Both the position numbers and the translations under genes were made by a program. The notes under the pieces were generated by a model. That model was given only the letters and a program-made list of their open reading frames with translations, did not search any database and was not told the origin of the DNA. This document shows, in pieces, positions 1-12,189 of a stretch of 12,801 nucleotides of DNA. This DNA is from Chloroflexota bacterium (GTDB taxonomy: Bacteria > Chloroflexota > Dehalococcoidia > DSTF01 > JACRBR01), in assembly GCA_021813085.1 (NCBI GenBank), contig JAKAMA010000026.1, forward strand, positions 1-12,801, written 5' to 3'. Numbering within the stretch: the stretch's first letter is position 1; each line of letters starts with the position of its first letter.

Positions 1-2656
1 GGCCGACTGCATCGCCGCCTGCACGCTCAACCTCTTCGTCAAGGACGGCATCGTCTGGCGCGAGGAGCAGAACACCATCTACGAGGCCTCCGGCGACCAC
101 CTGCCCGACTTCAACCCGCGCGGCTGCCAGAAGGGCATGATCTACTCCGACCTGATGTACGACGCCACGCGCATCAAGTACCCGCTGCGCCGCGTCGGCC
201 CCCGCGGCTCCGGCAAGTGGGAGCGCATCTCCTGGGAGGACGCCCTCACCGCGATCGCCGATAAGGTGCTCGACGTCGCCGCCACCGACGGCCCCGAATC
301 CATCGTCTACGACATGGGCACCACCAACATCGACTTCGGCCCCGGCACCCCGGCGCAGTTCCGCCTGATGGACCTCATCGGCACGACCTCGCTCGACGAA
401 TGGGCGAGCGTCGGCGACCTGCCGATGGGCGCCATCCAGACCTGGGGGCTGTTCAACACCGACGGCACATCCGACGACTACTGCAACTCCGACTACATCA
501 TGATCTGGCTCGGCAACCCCGCCTACACGCGCATCCCCGACGTGCACTTCATGCTCGAGGCGCGCTACAAGGGCGCACAGGTCGTGCTCGTCGCGCCCGA
601 CTACAGCCCGACCGCCATGCACGCCGACCTCTGGCTCAACCTGCGCGTCGCCACCGACGCCGCCCTCGCCCTCGGCATGGCGAAGGTGATGGTCGACGAG
701 GACCTCTACAAGCCCGACTACGTCAAGGAGCAGACCGACCTGCCGCTGCTCGTGCGCGAGGACGACGGCCGCTTCCTGCGCCAGTCCGACGTCACCGCGG
801 GCGGCAGCGACGCGATCTTCTACTTCTGGGACGAGGCCACGCGCGCCATCGTCGAAGCGCCCGGCAGCATGGGTCACGCCACGGCGTCCATCGCCCTCGG
901 CGGCCTGCGCCCCGCCCTCGAAGGCCGCTACGACGTGACGCTACACGACGGCCGCGGCGTCAGCGTGCGCCCGCTCTGGGAGCGGCTCTGCGACGAGCTG
1001 CGTGACTACACACCCGACCAGGTCGCGCGCATCACCGGCCTCCACGCCGACACTGTGCGCAAGGTGGCGCGCGACTTCGCGCGGGCGAACGCCGCGACCA
1101 TCTTCGCCTCCTGGGGCGCCTGCAAGCACTATCACATGGACCTCTTCCAGCGCTCGATGATCCTGATCTCCGCGCTCGCCGGCCACACGGGCAAGCAGGG
1201 CGGCGGCCTGCGCATCGGCGCCTGGTGGAACCTGCCGCTGAACTACGACAAAGGCCAGCTTGCCTTCATCGGCCAGGCGCCGGCCGACGGACAGCGCCCA
1301 AAGGTGCGCGACATCGAGAACATCATGAAGACGATGTCCGCCACGATGTCGAGCAGCGCGCCTACGATGGCCTGGCTCTACGCACACGACGCCGGCTACC
1401 GCGACGTCGTCAACAACCAGGCGTTCCACGACCCGGCCCTGCCGCACCCCGTCGCCGACTACGCGAAGGAGGCGTTCGACAACAACTGGATGCCCGTCGG
1501 CCCCAAGCCGAGGATGATGCTCTACACGAGCATGAACCCGCTCCGCCGCTGGCCGGCGCCCCACATCATCCGCCAGAACCTCTGGGAAAGCCTGGAGATG
1601 ATCGCGACGTGGGAGTTCCGCATGTCCAGCTCCGCCATGCAGGCGGACATCATCTTGCCCGCCGCCGGCTGGCACGAGAAGGCCGGCGTCAAGTTCTGCC
1701 AGTCGCTCGTCCCCTACATCTGCGTCGGCGACGAGGCGGTCGAGCCCCTCTACGAATCGCTGAGCGAGTTCGATATCATGGCGCGGCTCGCTCAGACGCT
1801 GCAGACGCGCGCCCGCCAGCGCGAGGAGGGGACGTACGTCGACGCCCGCGGCCAGGCACACGACCCGGCGCACTTCTACGACAACTGGAGCATGAACGGC
1901 GAGTTCAACGAAGGCGACAGCACGAAGGCGCTCGACGTGTCGATCAGCATGTCGCAGCCGCTGAGCGGCACGCCCTGGTCCGAGATCGCGGCGAAGGGCG
2001 CCGTACGCGTCAAGACCCCCGGCAGCTACGGCCCGATCACCGCTATCTGCTCCGACTTCGAGGATGGCCAGGCCCTTGCGCCGCTCAAGTGGTTCGTCGA
2101 GAAGAAGGAGCCGTGGCCCACCCTCACCGGCCGCCAGCAGTTCTACCTCGATCACCCCTGGTACCTCGACGCCGGCGAGGGCCTCCCCGTCCACAAGGAG
2201 AACCCCAAGACCGGCGGCGACTACCCGATCGAGGTGACGGGCGGCCACACACGCCACAGCATCCACGCGATCTTCCGCGCCAACAAGACGCTGCTCAACC
2301 TCCAGCGCGGCGAACCCGTGCTCTACATGAGCGACCGCGACGCCCTCGAGCGCGACATCCGCGACCACGACCTGGTCTGGGTCCACAACGACGTCGGCGG
2401 CTACCAGGTGCACGCCAAGCCCACGCCCGCCGTGCAGCCCGGCCAGGCGATCATCTACCATGCGTGGGAGCCCTACCAGTTCGCGGGCTGGAACAGCAGC
2501 CAGACCATCGTCGCCGGCGCCTTCAAGCCGCTGCACATGCTCGGCGGCTACGGCCACCTCAGCTTCCGGCCGATCCATGGCCAGCCCAGCCACACGCCCC
2601 GCGCCCAGAAGGTCGAGATCGAAAAGGTCGCCGCACCCGGCGCGGCGGGAGGATGA
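1..2656 (+). CDS. Type II DMSO reductase-family molybdopterin oxidoreductase, alpha subunit 1 (5' truncated)
   Basis: Catalytic Mo-bisMGD subunit of a nitrate/selenate/dimethylsulfide/ethylbenzene-type oxidoreductase. The frame is open from base 2 to the TGA, giving 884 residues; the N-terminus lies before the window. The Fe-S (FS0) motif is visible: Cys codons at 8-10 and 20-22 (CIAAC), then 34 residues, then Cys at 125-127 (RGCQKG). This matches the HxxxCxxxC...C pattern of type II enzymes; the His would lie just upstream. The likely Mo-ligand aspartate is encoded at 416-418, in GDLPMGAIQTWG, a context like the NarG DLP..QTWG segment. The length fits the 900-residue SerA/DdhA/EbdA clade rather than the 1200-residue NarG. 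The C-terminus carries the family's GGYGHL segment. An SCP2-like gene follows within 2 bases. Family is certain; substrate, direction of catalysis and cellular side are unknown because no beta subunit or signal peptide is in view. Confidence 0.95.
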   Translation, partial: ADCIAACTLNLFVKDGIVWREEQNTIYEASGDHLPDFNPRGCQKGMIYSDLMYDATRIKYPLRRVGPRGSGKWERISWEDALTAIADKVLDVAATDGPESIVYDMGTTNIDFGPGTPAQFRLMDLIGTTSLDEWASVGDLPMGAIQTWGLFNTDGTSDDYCNSDYIMIWLGNPAYTRIPDVHFMLEARYKGAQVVLVAPDYSPTAMHADLWLNLRVATDAALALGMAKVMVDEDLYKPDYVKEQTDLPLLVREDDGRFLRQSDVTAGGSDAIFYFWDEATRAIVEAPGSMGHATASIALGGLRPALEGRYDVTLHDGRGVSVRPLWERLCDELRDYTPDQVARITGLHADTVRKVARDFARANAATIFASWGACKHYHMDLFQRSMILISALAGHTGKQGGGLRIGAWWNLPLNYDKGQLAFIGQAPADGQRPKVRDIENIMKTMSATMSSSAPTMAWLYAHDAGYRDVVNNQAFHDPALPHPVADYAKEAFDNNWMPVGPKPRMMLYTSMNPLRRWPAPHIIRQNLWESLEMIATWEFRMSSSAMQADIILPAAGWHEKAGVKFCQSLVPYICVGDEAVEPLYESLSEFDIMARLAQTLQTRARQREEGTYVDARGQAHDPAHFYDNWSMNGEFNEGDSTKALDVSISMSQPLSGTPWSEIAAKGAVRVKTPGSYGPITAICSDFEDGQALAPLKWFVEKKEPWPTLTGRQQFYLDHPWYLDAGEGLPVHKENPKTGGDYPIEVTGGHTRHSIHAIFRANKTLLNLQRGEPVLYMSDRDALERDIRDHDLVWVHNDVGGYQVHAKPTPAVQPGQAIIYHAWEPYQFAGWNSSQTIVAGAFKPLHMLGGYGHLSFRPIHGQPSHTPRAQKVEIEKVAAPGAAGG

Positions 2657-2658
2657 CG

Positions 2659-3105
2659 ATGGACGACACCACGACCCCGGCGGCGGCCGCGGTCCCAGCC
2701 ACGCCCTTCGCGGTCACGCTCGGCGAGGGCACCGACGGCAACGTCCTCGCGACGCTGCTCAAGCAGCACATCGAGGCCGTCGTCGCCGCCGAGCCGCGCA
2801 AGGCCGGTGCGGCCGCCCGCATCCACGGCCGGCTCGGCATCCGCTCGACGGAGCCCGTCGCCGACGTCACCCTGGTCTTCGCGCCCGGCGGCGTCACCAT
2901 CCGCGGCGGCATCGAGCCGGGCGTCGACGGCACGATCACCGGCCCGCTCAAGCTCCAGACGGAGACGCTCGTCGCGAAGGCGAACCCCTACACGGCGATG
3001 CTGCGCCGCCAGCTCAAGGTGCGCATCCGCCTCTCCCGTCCCCTCTTCACCGCGCAGGCCTACGGGTTCCTGAAAGTGCCGCCGTCCCTCCGCCCGAAGG
3101 ACTGA
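2659..3105 (+). CDS. Small SCP2 sterol-transfer-like domain protein
   Basis: Protein of 148 residues resembling the SCP2 lipid-binding domain. A low-complexity Thr/Ala/Pro start (residues 1-15) precedes a helix and then the SCP2-like core: VTLVFAPGGVTIRGG (70-84), the DGTITGP strand-turn (90-96), the AKANPYTAMLRRQLKVRIRL helix region, and a C-terminal FLKVPPSL. Two ATGs are possible. ATG 2653 overlaps the upstream stop as ATGA but has GGAGG directly against it. ATG 2659 has GGAGG (2648-2652) at a 6-base spacing and is preferred. The gene is almost certainly co-transcribed with the truncated alpha subunit. SCP2 domains bind lipids or other hydrophobic ligands, so it might present a hydrophobic substrate or cofactor to the molybdoenzyme, but that is inference. 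SCP2 assignment is from pattern only and moderately sure; the gene itself is well supported. Confidence 0.7.
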   Translation: MDDTTTPAAAAVPATPFAVTLGEGTDGNVLATLLKQHIEAVVAAEPRKAGAAARIHGRLGIRSTEPVADVTLVFAPGGVTIRGGIEPGVDGTITGPLKLQTETLVAKANPYTAMLRRQLKVRIRLSRPLFTAQAYGFLKVPPSLRPKD

Positions 3106-3849: not shown

Positions 3850-4499
3850 GCGTCGATCTCCAGCGGCTCCCACACCGCATGATACGCCTTCAGTCCCCCG
3901 CGCTCCTTGTTCGACCCCTGCCAGACCGCGAAGGTGCACTTGTGCGTCATCCCGGGCGCCAGCGGCACGACGTACTCCGCCGGCAGGTTGACGTGGAACG
4001 GCCGCGCGATGACGACGCGCCACGTTCCGTTGCCCCACGACCCGTGCCCCGAGAGCGGCGTCTCGGCGTGGCGCACCGTCGTGCCGCGGCCCGTCGCCGT
4101 CACATAGAACGGCGTCTCGATGTCCGCGCGCCACAGCCACATATTCACCGGCTGTGCTGGCAACCCCATCTCCGCGATCGGCGCGTCGTCCTTGATCGGC
4201 AGCATCACGCCCGCCTGATCCGGGAAGTTCGCCATGTCGTCCGGGTCACTGTCGTCCGTCGCGTCGTCCCACTCCAGGCGGAAGAAGATCACCTCGCCGT
4301 TGTGTGCCGCCCGCACTCGCACGTCGGGCGTCAGTCCATGCTGCAACGACTTCCACTTGTTCTGGATGTACTCCGAAGGCTGGAGCACGAGCGGTGTCGA
4401 TGACAGCGGCATGCGCTGCGGCCCGACCGCCGCCCACGTGCCCGCGTCCGGGTCGAGCAGCGACGCTGTGTCCGCCGTCAGCCGCACCGCCTTCACCAT
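3846..4499 (-). CDS. Ethylbenzene dehydrogenase-type haem b (gamma) subunit
   Basis: A 217-residue protein of the type II DMSO reductase gamma family (EbdC/DdhC/SerC-like), which passes electrons between the Fe-S beta subunit and an external carrier through one haem b. Visible motifs include HNGEVIFFRLEWDDAT (66-81), MGLPAQPVNMWLWRAD (111-126) and FAVWQGSNKERGGLKAYHAVW (190-210). By analogy with EbdC, whose haem ligands are a Met and a Lys about 90 residues apart, Met111 and Lys204 are the likely ligands. The length matches EbdC (just over 210). The N-terminus has no signal peptide, whereas characterised members are periplasmic. ATG 4499 is chosen; it overlaps the upstream MobB-FmdE gene by 7 bases and has no clear ribosome binding site, suggesting translational coupling. 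The downstream chaperone gene overlaps by 4 bases. Confidence 0.9.
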   Translation of the reverse strand: MVKAVRLTADTASLLDPDAGTWAAVGPQRMPLSSTPLVLQPSEYIQNKWKSLQHGLTPDVRVRAAHNGEVIFFRLEWDDATDDSDPDDMANFPDQAGVMLPIKDDAPIAEMGLPAQPVNMWLWRADIETPFYVTATGRGTTVRHAETPLSGHGSWGNGTWRVVIARPFHVNLPAEYVVPLAPGMTHKCTFAVWQGSNKERGGLKAYHAVWEPLEIDA

Positions 4500-5584
4500 G
4501 GCGCACGCACCCGGTCGTCTTCGCCGACGGGGCGATAGTACGCGCCGCCGGCGCAGGCGCGGCACATCGGCCCGTCATCGCCCGCGACCTGGCGGTGGTC
4601 GTTCACCTCTTCGCCGCACACCACACAGACCACCCGCTCGACGGGCTTGCCTGGCCGGTCGTACGCGCCCACCTCGACGCTGACCTCCTGCACCGTGAAC
4701 AGCGCCTCGTCCGGCAGCGAGCGATATGCCGCCATCTGCGCCTCTCGCCGGTCGAGGTGCGGGTACAGCGCCGCCGCCCGCTCGCGCGAGTCCGCGCGCG
4801 CCACGACGCGCACGGCGTAGCCCGTCTCCGTGTTGAGGAACGTCGCGGCGAGCTTGCCGTAATCCACCAGTTTCAGCGTGCGCTTCCCCGGCCGGCAGCC
4901 CGTCACCGTCTGCACCGCGTCCGCGCCGCAGCGGTCCACCTCCACCCAGGCGATCAGTTGCTTCGACCGCTTCGGCTGCTCGATCCCCACCGCGCGGCAA
5001 CCCAGCAGCGCCAGCCGCACGCCGAGCACCTGACCCGGGCAGATGTGCCCGTGGAACGCCTCCGCCTCGCGCATCGCGCGGTCGAGGGCGTCCTGCGCCG
5101 GGTCGCGCGCCGCGAGCCAGTCCATGATGTAGCGCGCGACTTCCGCCGGGTTGTCCCGCTCCAGCGGCGTCGCCTCGCCGTCCGTCGAGATCACGCCCAA
5201 CAGCTCGCCCGCGTCCTCGCGCGGCGACCGCGCATCGCCCGGGCCCAGCAGCAGCAGGTACGGCGTCGCGACGCCCTGGAACCCCTCGGCGAGGATCAGG
5301 TCGACGTTGTCGCCGAGCCGCGCCGCAAGCTCGAGCAGCCCCGGCTCCCGCGCCGGCGCCTCGAACGTCGCGACCTTCCCCGGCGCCACCACCGTCACCG
5401 AGAGCGCGCCCGCGTCCGCGTAGCGGAACGAGTCCTTCCCGCGGCGGTCGAGATCGACCCGGTGGTGCGCGTGCTTGAGCACCGCGACGCGCACGCCGCG
5501 CGCCAGCAACAGCCGCACGACTTCGGTCAGTAGTGTCGTCTTCCCCGAACCCGACCGGCCCAGCATGCGGATGATCGGCGCCAT
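4493..5584 (-). CDS. MobB-FmdE fusion: molybdopterin-guanine dinucleotide protein B with FmdE/zinc-ribbon domain
   Basis: Two-domain cytoplasmic protein of 363 residues. Residues 1 to about 158 are MobB-like, with a P-loop GRSGSGKT (9-16) near the N-terminus, the LKHAHH segment (37-42) and DLILAEGFQG (95-104). MobB is a GTPase linked to formation or delivery of the MGD form of the Mo cofactor. Residues 163 to about 345 are FmdE-like: HGHICPGQVLGVRLA (178-192), VEVDRCGADAVQTVTGC (214-230) and KLVDYGKLA (238-246). They end in a zinc ribbon, CVVC (320-323) and CRAC (341-344). FmdE domains occur with tungsten/molybdenum formylmethanofuran dehydrogenases, but no such enzyme is here, so a metal or cofactor handling role for the neighbouring oxidoreductases is more likely (inference). 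It is first in the leftward operon. ATG 5584 puts the P-loop at the expected position. Confidence 0.9.
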   Translation of the reverse strand: MAPIIRMLGRSGSGKTTLLTEVVRLLLARGVRVAVLKHAHHRVDLDRRGKDSFRYADAGALSVTVVAPGKVATFEAPAREPGLLELAARLGDNVDLILAEGFQGVATPYLLLLGPGDARSPREDAGELLGVISTDGEATPLERDNPAEVARYIMDWLAARDPAQDALDRAMREAEAFHGHICPGQVLGVRLALLGCRAVGIEQPKRSKQLIAWVEVDRCGADAVQTVTGCRPGKRTLKLVDYGKLAATFLNTETGYAVRVVARADSRERAAALYPHLDRREAQMAAYRSLPDEALFTVQEVSVEVGAYDRPGKPVERVVCVVCGEEVNDHRQVAGDDGPMCRACAGGAYYRPVGEDDRVRAPW

Positions 5585-5706: not shown

Positions 5707-5756
5707 CGCCTGCCTCCCGGCGACGATGCAGGTGCCCGGCTGACGACGGAGGGATG

Positions 5757-8567
5757 ATGCCCATCGAGACGCGCCGCCCGCACGCGGCGAAGGACGAAAC
5801 CACCGAAGCCACCTACCGCGACCGCTTCACGTTTGACCGCGTCGCCTGGGGCAGCCACTGCATCGACTGCTACCCCGGCAACTGCCCCTACCGCGTCTAC
5901 CTCCGCGATGGCAAGATCGCCTTCGAAGAGCAGGCCGGCGTCCTGCCCGTCATCGAGCAGGGCGTGCCCGACATGAACCCCATGGGTTGCCAGAAGGGCG
6001 CCCAGTGGAGCCGCACTCTCGCCGGCGGCGAACGCGTGCACTTCCCGCTCAAGCGCACGGGCGAGCGCGGCCGCGGCGGCTGGCAGCGCATCTCGTGGGA
6101 CCAGGCCTGCGACGAGATCGCCGACGGTATCATCGACGCCATCGAGGACCAGGGTCCGGAGTCGATGATCGCGCTCTCGGGCTGCAACATGAGCACCTGG
6201 GGCGTCACCGGCCGCACCCGCTTCTACGGCCTCGTCGGCGGCATCACCACCGACCTCAACTCCGAGATGAACGACTTCTCGCCGGGCCACTACCTGACCT
6301 ACGGCAAGTTCGACCCCGTCAGCAGCATCGACGACTGGTTCCACGCCGACGTCTTCTTCATCTGGTTCTCGAACCCCGCCTTCACCCGCATCCCCCACCA
6401 GCACTACATCACCGAGGCACGCTACCGCGGCGCCACCATCGTGACGGTCGCCCCGGACTACTCTCCCTCGGCCATGCACGCCGACTACTACCTCGCCGTG
6501 CGCCCTGGCACCGATGCCGCGCTCGCGCTCGGCATGGCGGCGGCCGTCGTCGAAGAGGGCCTCGTGCACGAGCGCTTCGTGCAGGAGCAGACCGACCTGC
6601 CGCTCCTCGTGCGCGACGACACGCAGCGCTTCCTCGTTGAGGCGGACCTGACCGAGGGCGGCCACCCCGAGCAGTTCTTCTGGCTCGACCGCAAGACCCG
6701 CAAGCTCGCCCCGGCGCCGCGCGGCACCCTCGCGCTGGGCCGCGTCGACCCGGCGCTCAGCGGCAGCATCACCGTGACGCTCAAGGACGGCACGAAGACG
6801 ACAGCGCGGCCCGTGTACGAGCGCGTCGTCGCGCGCCTCCGCGACTACACCCCGGAGAAGGCAGCGCAGATCTGCGGCGTCGACGCGGCGACGATCCGCG
6901 AGATCGCGCGCAAGGTCGCGAAGGGCCGCACGAAGACGCTTGGCAGCCTGAACAACGCCGGCAAGTACTACCACGGCGACCTCATCGAGCGCTCACAACT
7001 CCTGCTCCTCGCGTTCACCGGCAACTGGGGCCGCAAGGGCACCGGCGTCGAGGCCTGGATCGCCGCGCTCTTCGACGGCTGGCTCCTCTCGGCGGCTAAG
7101 CCCCAGCGTGGACCTGAGATGGCGCGCGCCCTGCACGGCGCCTACCAGCAGTTCGTCTCGAACATCAACGCCGAAGACCCCACCATGACCCGCGAGCTGG
7201 CGACGATCGAGTTCACCAAACGCTCCGCCAACGACGGCGGTGGCGGCTGGGTGCCCCCCATCTTCCTCTGGTACAACCACGCCGGCTTCGGCGACAACTG
7301 GAACCGCGCCGACTGGAACGACGAGACGATGCCCCGCCCCTTCGAGGACTACTACAACGAGGCCCTCGACCGCGGCTGGTGGGCCGGCACCCCGAAGAAG
7401 GCCGTCGAGCCGCGTGTCTTCATCGAGTGCGGCGGCAACGCCCTGCGCCGTACCCGCGGCGGCCGGCGCATGCTGGTCAAGCACCTCTGGCCCAAGCTCA
7501 AGACGATCGTCACCATGGACATCCGCATGTCCGCGACCGCCCTCGAGTCCGACTACGTCCTGCCCATCGCCAGCCAGTACGAGAAGATCAGTTTCGGCAT
7601 CCCGAGCACGCACACCATGAACCTCACCTTCTGCGACCGCATCGTCGATCCGATCGACGAGGCGAAGCCGGAGATCGAGATCTTCGGCCTGCTCGCGAAG
7701 GCCCTGGCGCGCCGGGCGAAGGCGCGCGGCTTCACGACGTACAAGGACGGCGAAGGCGCAGAACGCCGGCTCGACGACATCTTCGAGCGCTACTCCTGCG
7801 GCGGCCTCCTCGAGGACGAGGACGCGCTCGCCGACGAGATGATCCAGGACACCACCATCACCGGCGCCCTGCCCGAGGGATCGACGCTGGCGACCGTGCG
7901 CGAGAAGGGCTTCATCCGCTTCAGCGGGCTCGGCATGAATGCCCGCGCGCTCGGCCAGGCGACCGAGATCGAGCCCGACAGCACCTTCGCACCCTTCCGC
8001 AACCACACCGAGAAGAAGTACCCGTATCCGACGCTGACGCGCCGCGCCCAGTTCTACATCGACCACGACTGGTTCCTCGAGGCAGACGAGCAGCTCCCGC
8101 GCCACAAGGATCCGCCGAAGGCCGGCGGCGACTACGCGCTGCTGATCACCAGCGGCCACAACCGCTGGAGCATCCACTCCACGAACATCGCCAACCGGCT
8201 GATGCTCCAGACGCACCGCGGCGAGCCGCACCTGCTCATGAACCCGGCCGACGCCGCCAGCCGCGACCTCGCCGACAACGACATGGCGGAGGTGTTCAAC
8301 GACCTCGGCGCGTTCCAGACGCCGGTGAAGACCTCACCCTCGGTGCGCCCCGGGCAGATCATCATGTACAACGGCTGGGAGCCCTACCAGTTCCCGAACT
8401 GGGACGGCCCCTCGGACATCGAGCCCGGCATGATCAAATGGCTGCACCTCGCCGGCGGCTACGGGCACCTGAAGTTCTGGCCGACGCAGTGGCAGCCCGC
8501 GCCCGCCTGCCGCGGCACGCGCGCCGAGGTGCGCCGGCCGGCGTCCCATACGGGCCGCACGCCCTGA
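5757..8567 (+). CDS. Type II DMSO reductase-family molybdopterin oxidoreductase, alpha subunit 2
   Basis: Complete catalytic subunit of 936 residues, the size of SerA/PcrA/EbdA/DdhA. The FS0 motif is H34-C35..C38....C43, 34 residues, then C78 (MGCQKG), so His plus three Cys can bind the cluster. The likely Mo-ligand aspartate is D173 in NSEMNDFSPGHYLTYG, an EbdA/PcrA-like context. Further family blocks are FNDLGAFQTPVKTSPSVRPG and GGYGHLKFW near the C-terminus. The N-terminus (MPIETRRPHAAKDE) has no twin-arginine hydrophobic signal, so export is not expected. ATG 5757 is preferred, with GGAGGG (5748-5753) three bases away; ATG 5754 is one codon earlier and abuts it. It is a diverged paralogue of the first alpha, sharing EQTDLPLLVR and VAPDYSP.AMHAD. 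It stands alone on its strand, divergent from the mobB-fmdE/gamma/chaperone operon. Substrate is unknown. Confidence 0.95.
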   Translation: MPIETRRPHAAKDETTEATYRDRFTFDRVAWGSHCIDCYPGNCPYRVYLRDGKIAFEEQAGVLPVIEQGVPDMNPMGCQKGAQWSRTLAGGERVHFPLKRTGERGRGGWQRISWDQACDEIADGIIDAIEDQGPESMIALSGCNMSTWGVTGRTRFYGLVGGITTDLNSEMNDFSPGHYLTYGKFDPVSSIDDWFHADVFFIWFSNPAFTRIPHQHYITEARYRGATIVTVAPDYSPSAMHADYYLAVRPGTDAALALGMAAAVVEEGLVHERFVQEQTDLPLLVRDDTQRFLVEADLTEGGHPEQFFWLDRKTRKLAPAPRGTLALGRVDPALSGSITVTLKDGTKTTARPVYERVVARLRDYTPEKAAQICGVDAATIREIARKVAKGRTKTLGSLNNAGKYYHGDLIERSQLLLLAFTGNWGRKGTGVEAWIAALFDGWLLSAAKPQRGPEMARALHGAYQQFVSNINAEDPTMTRELATIEFTKRSANDGGGGWVPPIFLWYNHAGFGDNWNRADWNDETMPRPFEDYYNEALDRGWWAGTPKKAVEPRVFIECGGNALRRTRGGRRMLVKHLWPKLKTIVTMDIRMSATALESDYVLPIASQYEKISFGIPSTHTMNLTFCDRIVDPIDEAKPEIEIFGLLAKALARRAKARGFTTYKDGEGAERRLDDIFERYSCGGLLEDEDALADEMIQDTTITGALPEGSTLATVREKGFIRFSGLGMNARALGQATEIEPDSTFAPFRNHTEKKYPYPTLTRRAQFYIDHDWFLEADEQLPRHKDPPKAGGDYALLITSGHNRWSIHSTNIANRLMLQTHRGEPHLLMNPADAASRDLADNDMAEVFNDLGAFQTPVKTSPSVRPGQIIMYNGWEPYQFPNWDGPSDIEPGMIKWLHLAGGYGHLKFWPTQWQPAPACRGTRAEVRRPASHTGRTP

Positions 8568-8624: not shown

Positions 8625-10850
8625 CTAGGCGGCGCTCCAGCCGAGCGCCGCCCGGGCGGCTGCCGACATCCGCGCCGGCGACCACGCCGGCTCCTCGACG
8701 ATGTCGACGTCCACCGTCTCGACGCCGGGCACGGACTCCAGCGCCGCGCGCACGTCCGCCTCCACCTGGTCCGCCACCGGGCAGCCCGGTGCCGTCAGCG
8801 TCATCGTCAGGTGCGCGTACGCGTCGCGCACCACGATCCCGTACACCAGCCCGAGGTCGACGATGTTCACGGGGATCTCCGGGTCGTACACCCGCCGCAG
8901 CGCGTCCAGCACCTGCTCGCGCGTCACCGTCGTCTCGATCAGCGTGCACTCCACCGGCGCCACGCCGTCCGCGCGCCGGCCCGGGTCGGCAGCCACCGCC
9001 GCGTTCAGCGTGTCGACGAGCACATCGGCCTTGGCGCCGACGAACGCCGCCGCGCGCGCGACCGTGATCGTCGGCGCCATGCGCGCGCGCATCTCCGGGT
9101 CCGCCAGCGGCCCGAAGCCGAAGTCCAGCAGCACCTGCAGGACGATCGGCCCCAGCCGGAGCGCCTCCGCCACCGTCATGTCGGCGTACACCGGGCCGTC
9201 GCCACGTGCCGGCTCCGGCGCCGCGCCGACCGGCGCTGGCGTCTCCTCCGCGGCGCCCGCCTCGGGCGCGGCTGCCTCGACCGGCTCGACCACGACTGCC
9301 GCCGGTGCCGCGAAGCGCGCGTACATCGCCGTCGCCAGCTCCGCCGCGAAGACCGCCAGCCCAAAGAACAGCAGCACGCCGGCCGCCGTCAGCAGCTTGA
9401 AGTCGAGAGGCGACGGCGCCAGCGTCAGCGCCACCGGCGCCACGCGCAGCACCGCCGCCGCGCCGACGAGCCCGAACGACGCCGGCACCAGCCCCGGCCA
9501 GCGGAGCGCCCGCCCCGAGAACACCGGCACCACCCGGTACGCCATCGCCATGATCATCAGCGTCGCGAAGCCGAGCAGGAACGCGTGCCGGATCGCGCCC
9601 GCCGCGTACATCGGCGTGTAGCCGCCGTCCAGCTCGCGCAGCCGCCAGTACACGTCGAGCGACACCCCGACGAGCAGCCAGGCGTACGCCACCTGCACCA
9701 TCGGCCGGTACGCGGGCGGCGCCTCGACCGGCGGCGCCTCTCCGTCCGCCGGCTCGAACACCCGCAGCGCTACCACCGCCGCGACGACAGCGAGCGCCAA
9801 CGCGAACGTGCTCGCGTACATCGCGTCGCGCGGCCATGCCGCCGCCGTGAACTGCGGCGCCCACGTCGCCGCCACGCGCAGCGGCGCCGCCAAGAGCAGC
9901 ACCCAGAAGGCCGCGTCGCGCAGCCGCGTGTGTACCGGCCGCAGCGAGAGGAAGAACGGCAGCGCCCGGAACGACACCCCCAGCACGAAGAACACCACGA
10001 ACCCGTACACCACGGCCTCGAGCAGCGCGGCGTCACCCGCCGCGGGCAGCAGCCGCTCGCCGCGCACCGCCGCGCGGACCACGAGATACGCGTTCATCGC
10101 CAGCGCGATCACGAACCACCCCGCGCCCACGAGCACGTAACGGTCGAACCCCTCACGCTTGTCGCGCGCCCGCCAGAACACGCGGGCGACGTACCAGGCG
10201 AACACCGCCGCGCCGACGAGCTCCAGCGGCGCCGACGCACCGAGCATCCAGCGCAGGAACCCTTGCCCGTGCGGCTGCGCCAGCATCCGCAGCGTCACGC
10301 CCGACAGCATCAGCGCGTACGACCCCAGCACGATGCGGCGTCCAGGCGGCGGCTGCCCCTTGAAGCGCGGCAACACGTGGTACGCGATGCCCATGACGAA
10401 CAGCCCCAGGTAGCCGAACACCTGCACGTGCCCGTGCGTCTGCACGAGCGCCAGCCACGACGCCCCGCGCAGGGCGCCCCAGCCGCCGCCCGTCATCGCC
10501 GCCGCGATGCCGCTCGTCACGCCGACGACCAGCGCGATCGCCAGCGACGTCATCAGGAAGAGCGGGTAGTGTGCGCCGGCGCCGCCGTCCATCCGCGCCG
10601 TCTCGCGCGCCTCGCCGCCCGGCTCGCCGGCCGCCGCACGGCCCGTCTGGGACGCCGCGTACGCGTCCAGCTCGGCGATGAGCTGCTGGGGATCGACGTG
10701 GTGCACGGCGGCGAAGAAGCCCACAGGCTCGACCGGCCCGTCGGGCCCGCCGCAGCCGGTCAGGCCGTACTTGTCGAAGATCTTCTCCGCCCCCGGGTAG
10801 CGCGTGACGGCCTCGCGCACCGTCGTGCGGCCCGTGATCAGTCCAGGCAT
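8625..10850 (-). CDS. NnrS-like 12-helix membrane protein fused to ScdA/DUF1858-like and DUF59 (Fe-S maturation) domains
   Basis: Protein of 741 residues with four parts. Residues 1-65 look like a ScdA_N/DUF1858-type small helical domain (TTVREAVTRYPGAEKIFDKYG, single Cys33). Residues about 96-515 are a polytopic membrane core with about 12 hydrophobic helices and NnrS-like signatures: QTHGHVQVFGYLGLF (137-151), YHVLPRF (157-163), RHAFLLGFATLMIMAMAYRV (421-440) with H139, H141 and H422 as possible haem or metal ligands. An Ala/Pro/Glu linker (516-555) leads to a second DUF1858-like domain (556-620). Last is a DUF59 domain (643-720) with DPEIP (656-660), TAPGCP with Cys690, and the EPAWSPARMS tail of PaaD/SufT-like proteins. 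NnrS relates to NO stress and ScdA/DUF59 to Fe-S repair, so a nitrosative-damage role is inferred. ATG 10850 has AGGAGG (10858-10863) at 7 bases. Confidence 0.85.
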   Translation of the reverse strand: MPGLITGRTTVREAVTRYPGAEKIFDKYGLTGCGGPDGPVEPVGFFAAVHHVDPQQLIAELDAYAASQTGRAAAGEPGGEARETARMDGGAGAHYPLFLMTSLAIALVVGVTSGIAAAMTGGGWGALRGASWLALVQTHGHVQVFGYLGLFVMGIAYHVLPRFKGQPPPGRRIVLGSYALMLSGVTLRMLAQPHGQGFLRWMLGASAPLELVGAAVFAWYVARVFWRARDKREGFDRYVLVGAGWFVIALAMNAYLVVRAAVRGERLLPAAGDAALLEAVVYGFVVFFVLGVSFRALPFFLSLRPVHTRLRDAAFWVLLLAAPLRVAATWAPQFTAAAWPRDAMYASTFALALAVVAAVVALRVFEPADGEAPPVEAPPAYRPMVQVAYAWLLVGVSLDVYWRLRELDGGYTPMYAAGAIRHAFLLGFATLMIMAMAYRVVPVFSGRALRWPGLVPASFGLVGAAAVLRVAPVALTLAPSPLDFKLLTAAGVLLFFGLAVFAAELATAMYARFAAPAAVVVEPVEAAAPEAGAAEETPAPVGAAPEPARGDGPVYADMTVAEALRLGPIVLQVLLDFGFGPLADPEMRARMAPTITVARAAAFVGAKADVLVDTLNAAVAADPGRRADGVAPVECTLIETTVTREQVLDALRRVYDPEIPVNIVDLGLVYGIVVRDAYAHLTMTLTAPGCPVADQVEADVRAALESVPGVETVDVDIVEEPAWSPARMSAAARAALGWSAA

Positions 10851-10911
10851 GGTGACGCCTCCTGGGCCGAGCGTATCGACGCGCGCCCGCCGGCGCTGTA
10901 ACTTTGGTCGC
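10851..10911. promoter_or_regulatory. 61-base divergent promoter region: membrane fusion protein / Crp-family regulator
   Basis: The starts of the two genes are only 61 bases apart on opposite strands, so the promoters must overlap or one must lie inside the other gene. On the - strand AGGAGG (10858-10863) is a strong ribosome binding site. On the + strand TGTAAC (10897-10902) is a possible -10 element; it would put transcription start at about 10909, nearly at the ATG, so the regulator mRNA may be leaderless. No convincing -35 was found for either side. Confidence 0.5.
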
Positions 10912-11598
10912 ATGGAGCAGCCGACACGCCCCGCAGGGCCCTTCGCCTCCGTCCCCTACTTCTCCGGGCTCACGGACGATGAGCGCGCGCGCGTCGCCGC
11001 CCGCGCGCGCCGGCGCAGCGTGCGGCCGGGCGATGTGCTCTTCGTCGAGGGCGAGGAGTGTGCTGGCCTCTTCGTCGTCGTCAGCGGCCTTGTCAAGCTC
11101 TACAAGACCTCCCCCGACGGCAAGGAGCAGGTCGTGCGCCACATGGGCGCGGGCGACTCGTTCAACGAGGTGCCGGTCTTCGACGGCGGCCCCAACCCCG
11201 TCACCGCCGCCGCCGTCGAGCCCGGCGAAGTGCTGATCTTCTCGCGGCCCGCCGTGCTCGAACTGCTGCGCGACTACCCCGCGTTCGGCGCCGCCGTCGT
11301 GCAGGTGTTCGCGTCGCGCCTGCGCCACCTTGTCGCGCTGGTCGAGGACCTGTCGTTCCGCCAGGTCACCGCGCGCGTCGCCCGCATCCTCCTGCAGTCC
11401 CTCGACCCCCACGAAGGCATCGGCGCCGGCGCCGGCGTGCGCGCGCGCGTCACCCAGCGCGAGATCGCCGAGATGGCCGGCACGAGCCGCGAGGTCGTCG
11501 CCCGCGCCCTGAAGGCGCTCGAGGGCGCCCACGCCGTGGAGGTCCGCGCCGGCCGCATCCGCATCAGCGACCCCGCCGTCCTGCCGGCCCTCTCCTGA
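10912..11598 (+). CDS. Crp/Fnr-family transcriptional regulator with CRP-like recognition helix
   Basis: A 228-residue regulator. An N-terminal cyclic-nucleotide-binding-type beta-roll (about 13-120) is followed by a long dimerisation helix (about 122-150) and a winged helix-turn-helix (about 179-220). The recognition helix reads TSREVVARALKALE; R193, E194 and R198 match the DNA-contacting R180, E181 and R185 of E. coli CRP, so GTGA half-sites are predicted. The effector pocket differs: the CRP Arg-Ser cAMP anchor is replaced by NPVTAAA (95-101), so cAMP binding is unlikely. There is no FNR-type cysteine cluster (only Cys50), so no 4Fe-4S sensor of that kind. Another ligand or haem is possible. 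ATG 10912 has no Shine-Dalgarno sequence and may be leaderless. It is divergent from the NnrS-like fusion and followed by DUF2249 genes, both plausible targets. Confidence 0.92.
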   Translation: MEQPTRPAGPFASVPYFSGLTDDERARVAARARRRSVRPGDVLFVEGEECAGLFVVVSGLVKLYKTSPDGKEQVVRHMGAGDSFNEVPVFDGGPNPVTAAAVEPGEVLIFSRPAVLELLRDYPAFGAAVVQVFASRLRHLVALVEDLSFRQVTARVARILLQSLDPHEGIGAGAGVRARVTQREIAEMAGTSREVVARALKALEGAHAVEVRAGRIRISDPAVLPALS

Positions 11599-11603
11599 GA
11601 CGG

Positions 11604-11619
11604 CGTGACGAAAGTCACA
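11604..11619. promoter_or_regulatory. Predicted CRP-type operator
   Basis: CGTGA-N6-TCACA (11604-11608 and 11615-11619) matches the CRP consensus TGTGA-N6-TCACA at nine of ten positions. Its core GTGAC-GAAA-GTCAC is a perfect 5-bp palindrome. It lies six bases after the regulator stop codon and 80 bases before the first DUF2249 start, well placed to control the DUF2249 pair. The regulator's CRP-like recognition residues predict this kind of half-site. Binding itself is inference. Confidence 0.65.
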
Positions 11620-11698: not shown

Positions 11699-11938
11699 AT
11701 GAGCACCATCACCACCACCATCGACGTCCGCGCGATGCACCCGCGTGACCGCCACCCGCGCATCTTCTCCACCTTCGACGCGCTGCCCGTCGGCGACGCG
11801 ATCGTGCTGATCAACGACCACGACCCGAAGCCGCTCTTCTACCAGCTCCAGGCGGAGCGCCCCGGACAGGTCGGCTGGACGCCCGAGGAGCAGGGACCCG
11901 AGCGCTGGGTGATCCGCATCGAGAAGCTGGCCGCGTGA
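11699..11938 (+). CDS. DUF2249 domain protein 1
   Basis: Small cytoplasmic protein of 79 residues, made up almost entirely of one DUF2249 domain (TusA/SirA-like fold). Recognisable family segments are TIDVRAMHPRDRHPRIF (7-23), the FDALPVGDAIVLINDHDPKP turn (26-45) and PLFYQLQAERPG (45-56), ending in RWVIRIEKL (69-77). The biochemical function of DUF2249 is not established. The family is often found beside NO-related regulators, hemerythrins and denitrification genes, which fits the NnrS-like protein and Crp-type regulator here. There are no cysteines, so it cannot be a TusA-type sulfur carrier. ATG 11699 has AAAGG (11687-11691) seven bases upstream. Its stop overlaps the next start by one base (TGATG). 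Confidence 0.85.
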   Translation: MSTITTTIDVRAMHPRDRHPRIFSTFDALPVGDAIVLINDHDPKPLFYQLQAERPGQVGWTPEEQGPERWVIRIEKLAA

Positions 11939-12189
11939 TGGGCGGCGAGGAGACGCTGACCGTCGACGTACGCGAGGACATCCGCGCCGGCCGCGAGCCC
12001 TTTGGCCGCATCATGGCCGCGGTCGCCTCGCTCCGCGACGGCCAGTCGCTGACGCTGATCAACGTCTTCGAACCGGTGCCGCTCTACGACGTGATGGCTG
12101 AACGAGGATTCGCCCACGACACGCAGCGCACCCCCGGCGGCGACTGGCAGATCCGCTTCTACCGCGCCTCCGAGGCCGCGCACCCGTAA
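11938..12189 (+). CDS. DUF2249 domain protein 2
   Basis: A second, diverged DUF2249 protein of 83 residues. It has VDVREDIRAGREPFGRIMAA (9-28), a SLRDGQSLTLINVF strand pair (31-44), the EPVPLYDVMAERGF block (45-58) that parallels DPKPLFYQL in the first copy, and the closing GDWQIRFYR (68-76). There are no cysteines. ATG 11938 shares its A with the upstream stop (TGATG); GTG 11935 one codon earlier is an alternative. There is no ribosome binding site, so translation is probably coupled to the first DUF2249 gene. The two copies differ enough to suggest distinct roles, perhaps a heteromeric pair (inference). Function is unknown. Confidence 0.85.
   Translation: MGGEETLTVDVREDIRAGREPFGRIMAAVASLRDGQSLTLINVFEPVPLYDVMAERGFAHDTQRTPGGDWQIRFYRASEAAHP

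Follow-up and report, generated by a model that had tools for sequence, protein, structure and literature searches.

An open frame joining an NnrS membrane core to DUF1858- and DUF59-type domains in a Dehalococcoidia genome

We analysed a 12,801-nucleotide stretch of DNA from a Chloroflexota bacterium (Dehalococcoidia; assembly GCA_021813085.1, contig JAKAMA010000026.1), called here the window, which is the whole of contig G000:C351 of a metagenome-assembled genome (MAG) of 2.52 Mb in 399 contigs, 76.8% complete. One of its genes, referred to below as the fusion, encodes in a single chain an NnrS membrane core and three soluble domains, and lies on the minus strand, a point missing from the original prediction made for this DNA. 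The gene and its parts are the following.

8625..10850, minus strand: four-domain NnrS fusion gene, 741 aa; one unbroken frame, 741 codons and a stop, with its ATG at 10850
10858..10863, minus strand: AGGAGG, by sequence the fusion's likely ribosome-binding site, 7 nt upstream of the ATG
10659..10829, minus strand: N-terminal ScdA_N/DUF1858-type domain, residues 8-64, with C33 (profile searches)
9324..10574, minus strand: NnrS core, residues 93-509, 12 helices, haem-copper oxidase fold (Pfam PF05940, 74.6 bits vs cut-off 28; structure model)
10434..10436, minus strand: codon of H139, aligned with the haem ligand of CcoN helix II; His in 179 of 179 cores
9585..9587, minus strand: codon of H422, in the RH motif; alignment pairs it with the second HxH histidine of CcoN helix X; His in 179 of 179 cores
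9018..9182, minus strand: DUF1858 domain, residues 557-611, without cysteine (Pfam PF08984, 61.6 bits vs cut-off 32.2)
8706..8921, minus strand: DUF59/SufT-like domain, residues 644-715, with C690 (Pfam DUF59/FeS_assembly_P, 84.4 bits vs cut-off 23.5)

Both the unbroken 741-residue frame with a good start and the NnrS-like, second DUF1858-like and DUF59 domains of the original prediction are confirmed, the three domains all scoring above their Pfam cut-offs. An in-frame ATG at 10913 is an alternative, longer start. Gene order is identical across the window in L033 (another MAG, 94% identity), and a search for the same architecture elsewhere, as had been suggested, retrieved 52 other homologues with all four domains; because of this recurrence, the fusion is no assembly artefact.

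Homologues were taken from a search against some 5.8 billion proteins (64 relatives, many of them full length with the same domains) and from a second search seeded with the NnrS of L045 (120 listed of 612). The order N-terminal domain, NnrS, DUF1858 and DUF59 is present in at least 53 of 182 proteins (own included), DUF59 in at least 57, and the first three domains without DUF59 in at least 71, tallies in which incomplete proteins may count as lacking DUF59. One protein tallied as DUF2249 (P0060) comprises, by Pfam, DUF2249, ScdA_N/DUF1858-type and NnrS domains. Source names among the matches listed include Dehalococcoidia, Chloroflexi, Poribacteria, Armatimonadota and Candidatus Scalindua, the relatives from the last two being without DUF59. 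In 400 genomes of the phylum, with at most two or so candidates scored per genome, a whole-length match was found only in the source genome and G235, and a match to about residues 5-626 in five further genomes (G209, G241, G383, G270 and G153); of 251 genomes from this phylum, 24 gave an NnrS match, 16 of these above the cut-off. The complete gene is present at five named MAG loci (L033, L034, L035, L036 and L046), and the architecture is retained over 38% identity. The claim that no protein with this order had been described fits the literature searched, although this domain order is widely distributed and conserved rather than unique. No report of NnrS together with DUF59 was found in the Creative Commons (CC)-licensed literature searched, and the NnrS-DUF59 fusion, common to many uncultured bacteria, seems to be previously undescribed.

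The N-terminal domain, originally called ScdA/DUF1858-like, is of such a type but stays below the curated cut-offs of ScdA_N (Pfam, 17.7 vs 32.5 bits) and TIGR03980 (34.4 vs 44.95 bits); among the relatives scanned, one (L038, 36.2 bits) passes that of ScdA_N. By profile it resembles the DUF1858-type structure 2k53 and, weakly, the ScdA chain 9r7j_A (E 0.011, profile A4). The position of C33 is Cys in 155 of the 163 N-terminal-type domains compared; Trp replaces this conserved Cys in P0058, P0061 and P0062. ScdA/YtfE proteins (RIC) have a di-iron hemerythrin-like domain. The weak similarity of the N-terminal domain is what the fusion shares with them, whereas it has a single Cys instead of the CC pair and, at E 0.1, no Pfam match to a hemerythrin-like di-iron domain; the proposed repair of clusters damaged by nitric oxide (NO) through an ScdA-like domain is not supported, only a weak one-Cys ScdA_N/DUF1858-type domain being present.

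In the DUF59 domain, C690 is kept as Cys in 57 of 57 domains, and the score misses the cut-off of NCBIfam TIGR02945 (109.7 vs 143.4 bits). Like SufT, and Mrp-type ATPases with an N-terminal DUF59, it is above the Pfam cut-off, has the conserved Cys and is SufT-like by tree; unlike them, it is joined to a membrane protein. The source genome encodes DUF59 in two more frames (401 aa and 129 aa). SufT has a role at high demand for iron-sulphur (Fe-S) clusters, and of nine modular forms of DUF59 listed, one has DUF1858 and none is named with NnrS (PMC4982691, section 6).

The core contains 12 hydrophobic helices, in line with the estimate of about 12 with HGH and RH motifs, and the structure model of the fusion has 12 long helices (mean predicted local distance difference test score 89.9; predicted template-modelling score 0.74). 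Both motifs are conserved in NnrS cores. The fusion resembles the NnrS family (PF05940; Rhodobacter, Bradyrhizobium, Vibrio) in its 12-helix core above the Pfam cut-off, and differs from it in adding three cytoplasmic domains. Lysine plus arginine in the short loops has a family mean of about 14.8 on the side of both termini vs 7.4 on the opposite side, and because their side is the more positive, the computation places both termini, and the N-terminal, DUF1858 and DUF59 domains, on the cytoplasmic side, in agreement with the inner-face location first proposed. The cytoplasm is where Fe-S assembly happens, the same side as the predicted location of DUF59.

Profile alignment relates the core to subunit I of the haem-copper oxidase superfamily (CcoN/NorB), with which it shares the fold and both low-spin haem histidines, H139 and H422 matching the bis-His pattern of helices II and X. 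Helix-level positions derive from the sequence alignment. HHalign also produced two shifted alternatives (probabilities 94.0 and 84.3), which are expected because the bundle is pseudo-symmetric. Unlike in CcoN/NorB, the CuB and high-spin haem histidines are not conserved: the positions aligned with the three CuB/FeB histidines of helices VI and VII are E278, T329 and W330, the fusion has no His within 274-300 and 308-334 (relatives have one somewhere within these ranges in 128 and 22 of 179, respectively), and the proximal His of the high-spin haem aligns with M414, or with I420 if a gap is removed (His at position 414 in 117 of 179 relatives). No statement that NnrS is related to haem-copper oxidases was found in the available text of the CC-licensed literature.

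An NO reductase, or another haem-copper-oxidase-type enzyme that reduces a gas, would share the fold and the low-spin haem ligands, and at L087 a separate 447-aa membrane protein, also COX1-like, lies beside DUF59 and NnrS. However, with E278, T329 and W330 at the CuB positions and two His-free ranges, the oxidase-type copper ligands are not conserved, and direct NO reduction by the core is therefore unlikely as judged by alignment; Vibrio NnrS does not remove NO either (PMC9246220). The fusion as an NO reductase was rejected on the missing CuB ligands, and we hold the whole class of such enzymes to be very improbable here. The source genome has a second, unfused NnrS (G000:C139, L101), with HGQ replacing HGH and without H158, on a contig that also carries a weak NirK-like match.

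DUF59 accompanies NnrS in several other forms. A separate DUF59 gene directly follows the gene for the N-terminal domain, NnrS and DUF1858 at L037, L038, L042, L044 and L099, with a 4-bp overlap in the first three; a DUF59 gene lies in the NnrS neighbourhood of L086, L087, L089 and cultured Thermogemmatispora (L052-L055), where the same module consists of separate genes; and at L045 DUF59 is the N-terminus of a NUBPL/Mrp-type ATPase adjoining NnrS, and the DUF59 of similar-sized proteins at L088, L090 and L091, placed by tree rather than by Pfam, groups with that of L045. In NnrS regions without a fusion, fetched by place, a DUF59 gene was found in 6 of 20 and a DUF2249 gene in 3 of 20, vs 0 of 19 control regions (13 kb) for either. 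The fused domains sit among SufT-like ones in a DUF59 tree of 44 rows, in which the starred clades (the L037 group, the L086/L087 pair, the L089/Thermogemmatispora group and the ATPase group) are each separate and the deep branches weak; DUF59 presence mapped on the NnrS tree gives 9 changes, at least 7 supported by starred branches. Because of these separate clades and multiple changes, we read DUF59 as having been recruited repeatedly to NnrS. The domains might instead share a regulon and be joined without mechanistic coupling, since DUF1858, DUF2249 and NnrS are separate genes in NO regulons (PMC6710368, PMC1274295), but with an architecture retained over 38% identity and DUF59 recruited repeatedly in different forms, we find this improbable. 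Between the DUF2249 and DUF59 genes of L086 (4285-5709) and L087 (4339-5682) lies the COX1-like membrane protein, with an HAH motif (31.5 bits, below the cut-off, and 37.4 bits, above it, respectively), which could be an unusual NO reductase-like protein. At L053, a cupin gene lies upstream of NnrS.

The neighbourhood of the fusion in the window includes a regulator gene, two genes of the DUF2249 family (which we take to be COG4309) and two candidate operators.

10912..11598, plus strand: Crp/FNR-family regulator, divergent from the fusion
11699..11938, plus strand: first DUF2249 protein, downstream of the Crp/FNR gene
11935..12189, plus strand: second DUF2249 protein, 4-bp overlap with the first
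10898..10911, no strand assigned: candidate operator GTAACTTTGGTCGC (GCGACCAAAGTTAC on the opposite strand), in the gap separating the fusion from the divergent Crp gene, abutting the Crp ATG
11605..11618, no strand assigned: candidate operator GTGACGAAAGTCAC, preceding the DUF2249 pair

The original link of NnrS to NO stress is borne out by its place in NO regulons (PMC1274295, PMC6710368, PMC9246220). Regulons of NnrR, DNR, NsrR and NorR include nnrS genes, and norB is frequently accompanied by COG4309 (PMC1274295); in Bradyrhizobium, nnrS and nnrR are divergent, as the fusion is from its Crp/FNR gene, and the NnrR regulon includes a DUF1858 gene (PMC6710368); in Sphingopyxis, a cupin-norB-nnrS2 operon, ytfE and SUF genes share one expression-change table (PMC6472365).

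The element GYGAC-N4-GTYAC is common to the upstream regions of relatives. First recognised in the window, L033, L034, L035, L043 and L044, it was found also outside this discovery set at L037, L045, L047, L089 (two copies) and L099, and in a relaxed form twice in each of L052-L055, in the spacers between DUF2249 and DUF59 and between DUF2249 and Crp, and upstream of the L056 NnrS. The strict pattern occurs 16 times in test loci vs 0 in controls, with 11 of the 16 sites within 150 bp of where a frame for NnrS, Crp, DUF2249 or DUF1858 starts; the relaxed pattern is mildly enriched (29 in 549,081 bases of test loci vs 8 in 247,019 control bases), and in the window alone its 2 occurrences are not beyond chance (0.70 expected; a count of 2 is reached in 24 of 200 shuffles). 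Whole genomes G000, G400 and G401 hold 2, 2 and 3 stricter elements, of which 2, 2 and 1 are at this locus, the G000 matches by construction; the reversed pattern is absent from all three. Classic FNR/NnrR boxes (TTG-N8-CAA) have a single match in the window, at 10360 within the gene, and none at the promoter. The recognition helix of the Crp protein, TSREVVAR, we liken to the RE...R of E. coli CRP, and it therefore fits GTGA half-sites. The DUF2249 profile also caught two long NnrS fusions, and because the Crp profile picked up an unrelated kind of control frame, the single Crp match among controls is probably an artefact.

This arrangement would also suit a membrane sensor controlling the Crp/FNR neighbour, in which NO or redox state would be detected by the haem core and the signal relayed by the DUF1858/DUF59 tail together with the DUF2249 pair. 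The Crp gene is divergent with a candidate operator in between, and the strict motif is almost confined to this locus in three genomes, though fitted to these very sites. In Thermus thermophilus, DrpB (DUF1858 plus two DUF2249) alters dnr/nar expression, and a DrpA/DrpB signal relay has been proposed (PMC6282519); that locus, of nitrate respiration, likewise combines DUF1858 and DUF2249 with a Crp-type regulator, but is without NnrS or DUF59. Since DUF59 is a biogenesis domain, not a signalling one, and the L036 fusion has no Crp or DUF2249 match inside the 22 kb fetched, we regard a sensor, by analogy with Drp, as unlikely.

Two further large genes in the window, at 2-2656 and 5754-8567, encode EbdA-type (ethylbenzene dehydrogenase-like) molybdoenzyme alpha subunits, a family expanded in the source genome (7 long and 3 half-length matches), G400 (12 full and 2 partial), G401 (13 and 1) and G403 (8 full). 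No Fe-S beta-subunit gene is among the window genes scanned, and beta-type matches lie elsewhere in these genomes. The fusion could serve solely as an electron carrier or assembly partner of these enzymes, several EbdA-type genes being close to it in the window, L033, L034 and L036; against this, the genes are convergent, there are none or remote matches only around L035, L037, L038, L042, L043 and L045, and Thermogemmatispora has the same module without a molybdoenzyme. A direct partnership was rejected on gene orientation and the loci without molybdoenzymes, and the role as such is quite unlikely.

Taking the computed features together (one chain, an oxidase fold, a bis-His pair, no oxidase-type copper ligands, cytoplasmic domains, recurrent NnrS-DUF59 coupling and a shared candidate operator), we interpret the fusion, with a probability of about 0.5, as a membrane haem protein that responds to NO and is tied to Fe-S maintenance, for which we infer binding of haem, protection from NO, transfer of clusters or iron, and clients. 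It would be induced with the Crp/FNR regulator and the two DUF2249 proteins by NO or nitrogen-oxide stress, and a single low-spin haem b would sit between H139 and H422. The core may lower NO-iron chemistry near the membrane, by analogy with Vibrio NnrS, which shields the iron pool from dinitrosyl iron complexes (PMC9246220, citing earlier work), while DUF59 with C690 may dock the SUF machinery or hand clusters or iron to clients, protecting or restoring Fe-S enzymes on the cytoplasmic membrane face. Likely clients would be the Fe-S-rich EbdA-family molybdoenzymes, numerous in the source genome.

Several observations weigh against this interpretation. The fusion lies convergent to the molybdoenzyme gene, and L035, L037 and L038 have no molybdoenzyme gene, which makes the EbdA client link weak. 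Rhodobacter NnrS has been called haem-copper-containing (PMC1274295) and a cuproprotein list includes NnrS (PMC6769254), whereas the fusion does not show conserved CuB ligands. No alignment was obtained by HHalign with eight COX1 frames of the aa3 type, a weak test with frames taken as the longest stop-to-stop, and other matches align the HGH motif to helix X of NorB or of CcoN; the helix register is therefore not beyond doubt. Finally, 14 of the 20 other NnrS regions are without a DUF59 gene, some on short contigs, and the six positive regions represent five genomes, three of one genus.

An NnrS-DUF59 fusion suggests a direct link between NO defence and Fe-S upkeep. A bolder form of this idea, which we consider unlikely, is that NnrS is a haem-copper oxidase branch that lost its gas-reducing copper site and became a quinol-fed single-haem electron donor, with the fused DUF1858/DUF59 tail reductively rebuilding nitrosylated clusters within a GTGAC-N4-GTCAC Crp regulon; if true, the fusion would be a respiratory-chain-powered Fe-S repair station. 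The fusion, the repeated coupling and the oxidase-like core without its active site yield concrete hypotheses on haem residues, an inner-face docking partner and a promoter sequence.

Among the other genes of the window, the minus-strand frame at 4493-5584 encodes a 363-aa protein joining MobB, FmdE and dksA/traR zinc-finger domains. The plus-strand frame at 2653-3105, flanked by the first EbdA-like gene and the chaperone gene, encodes an SCP-2-type sterol-transfer-like protein (21.6 bits vs cut-off 21.3).
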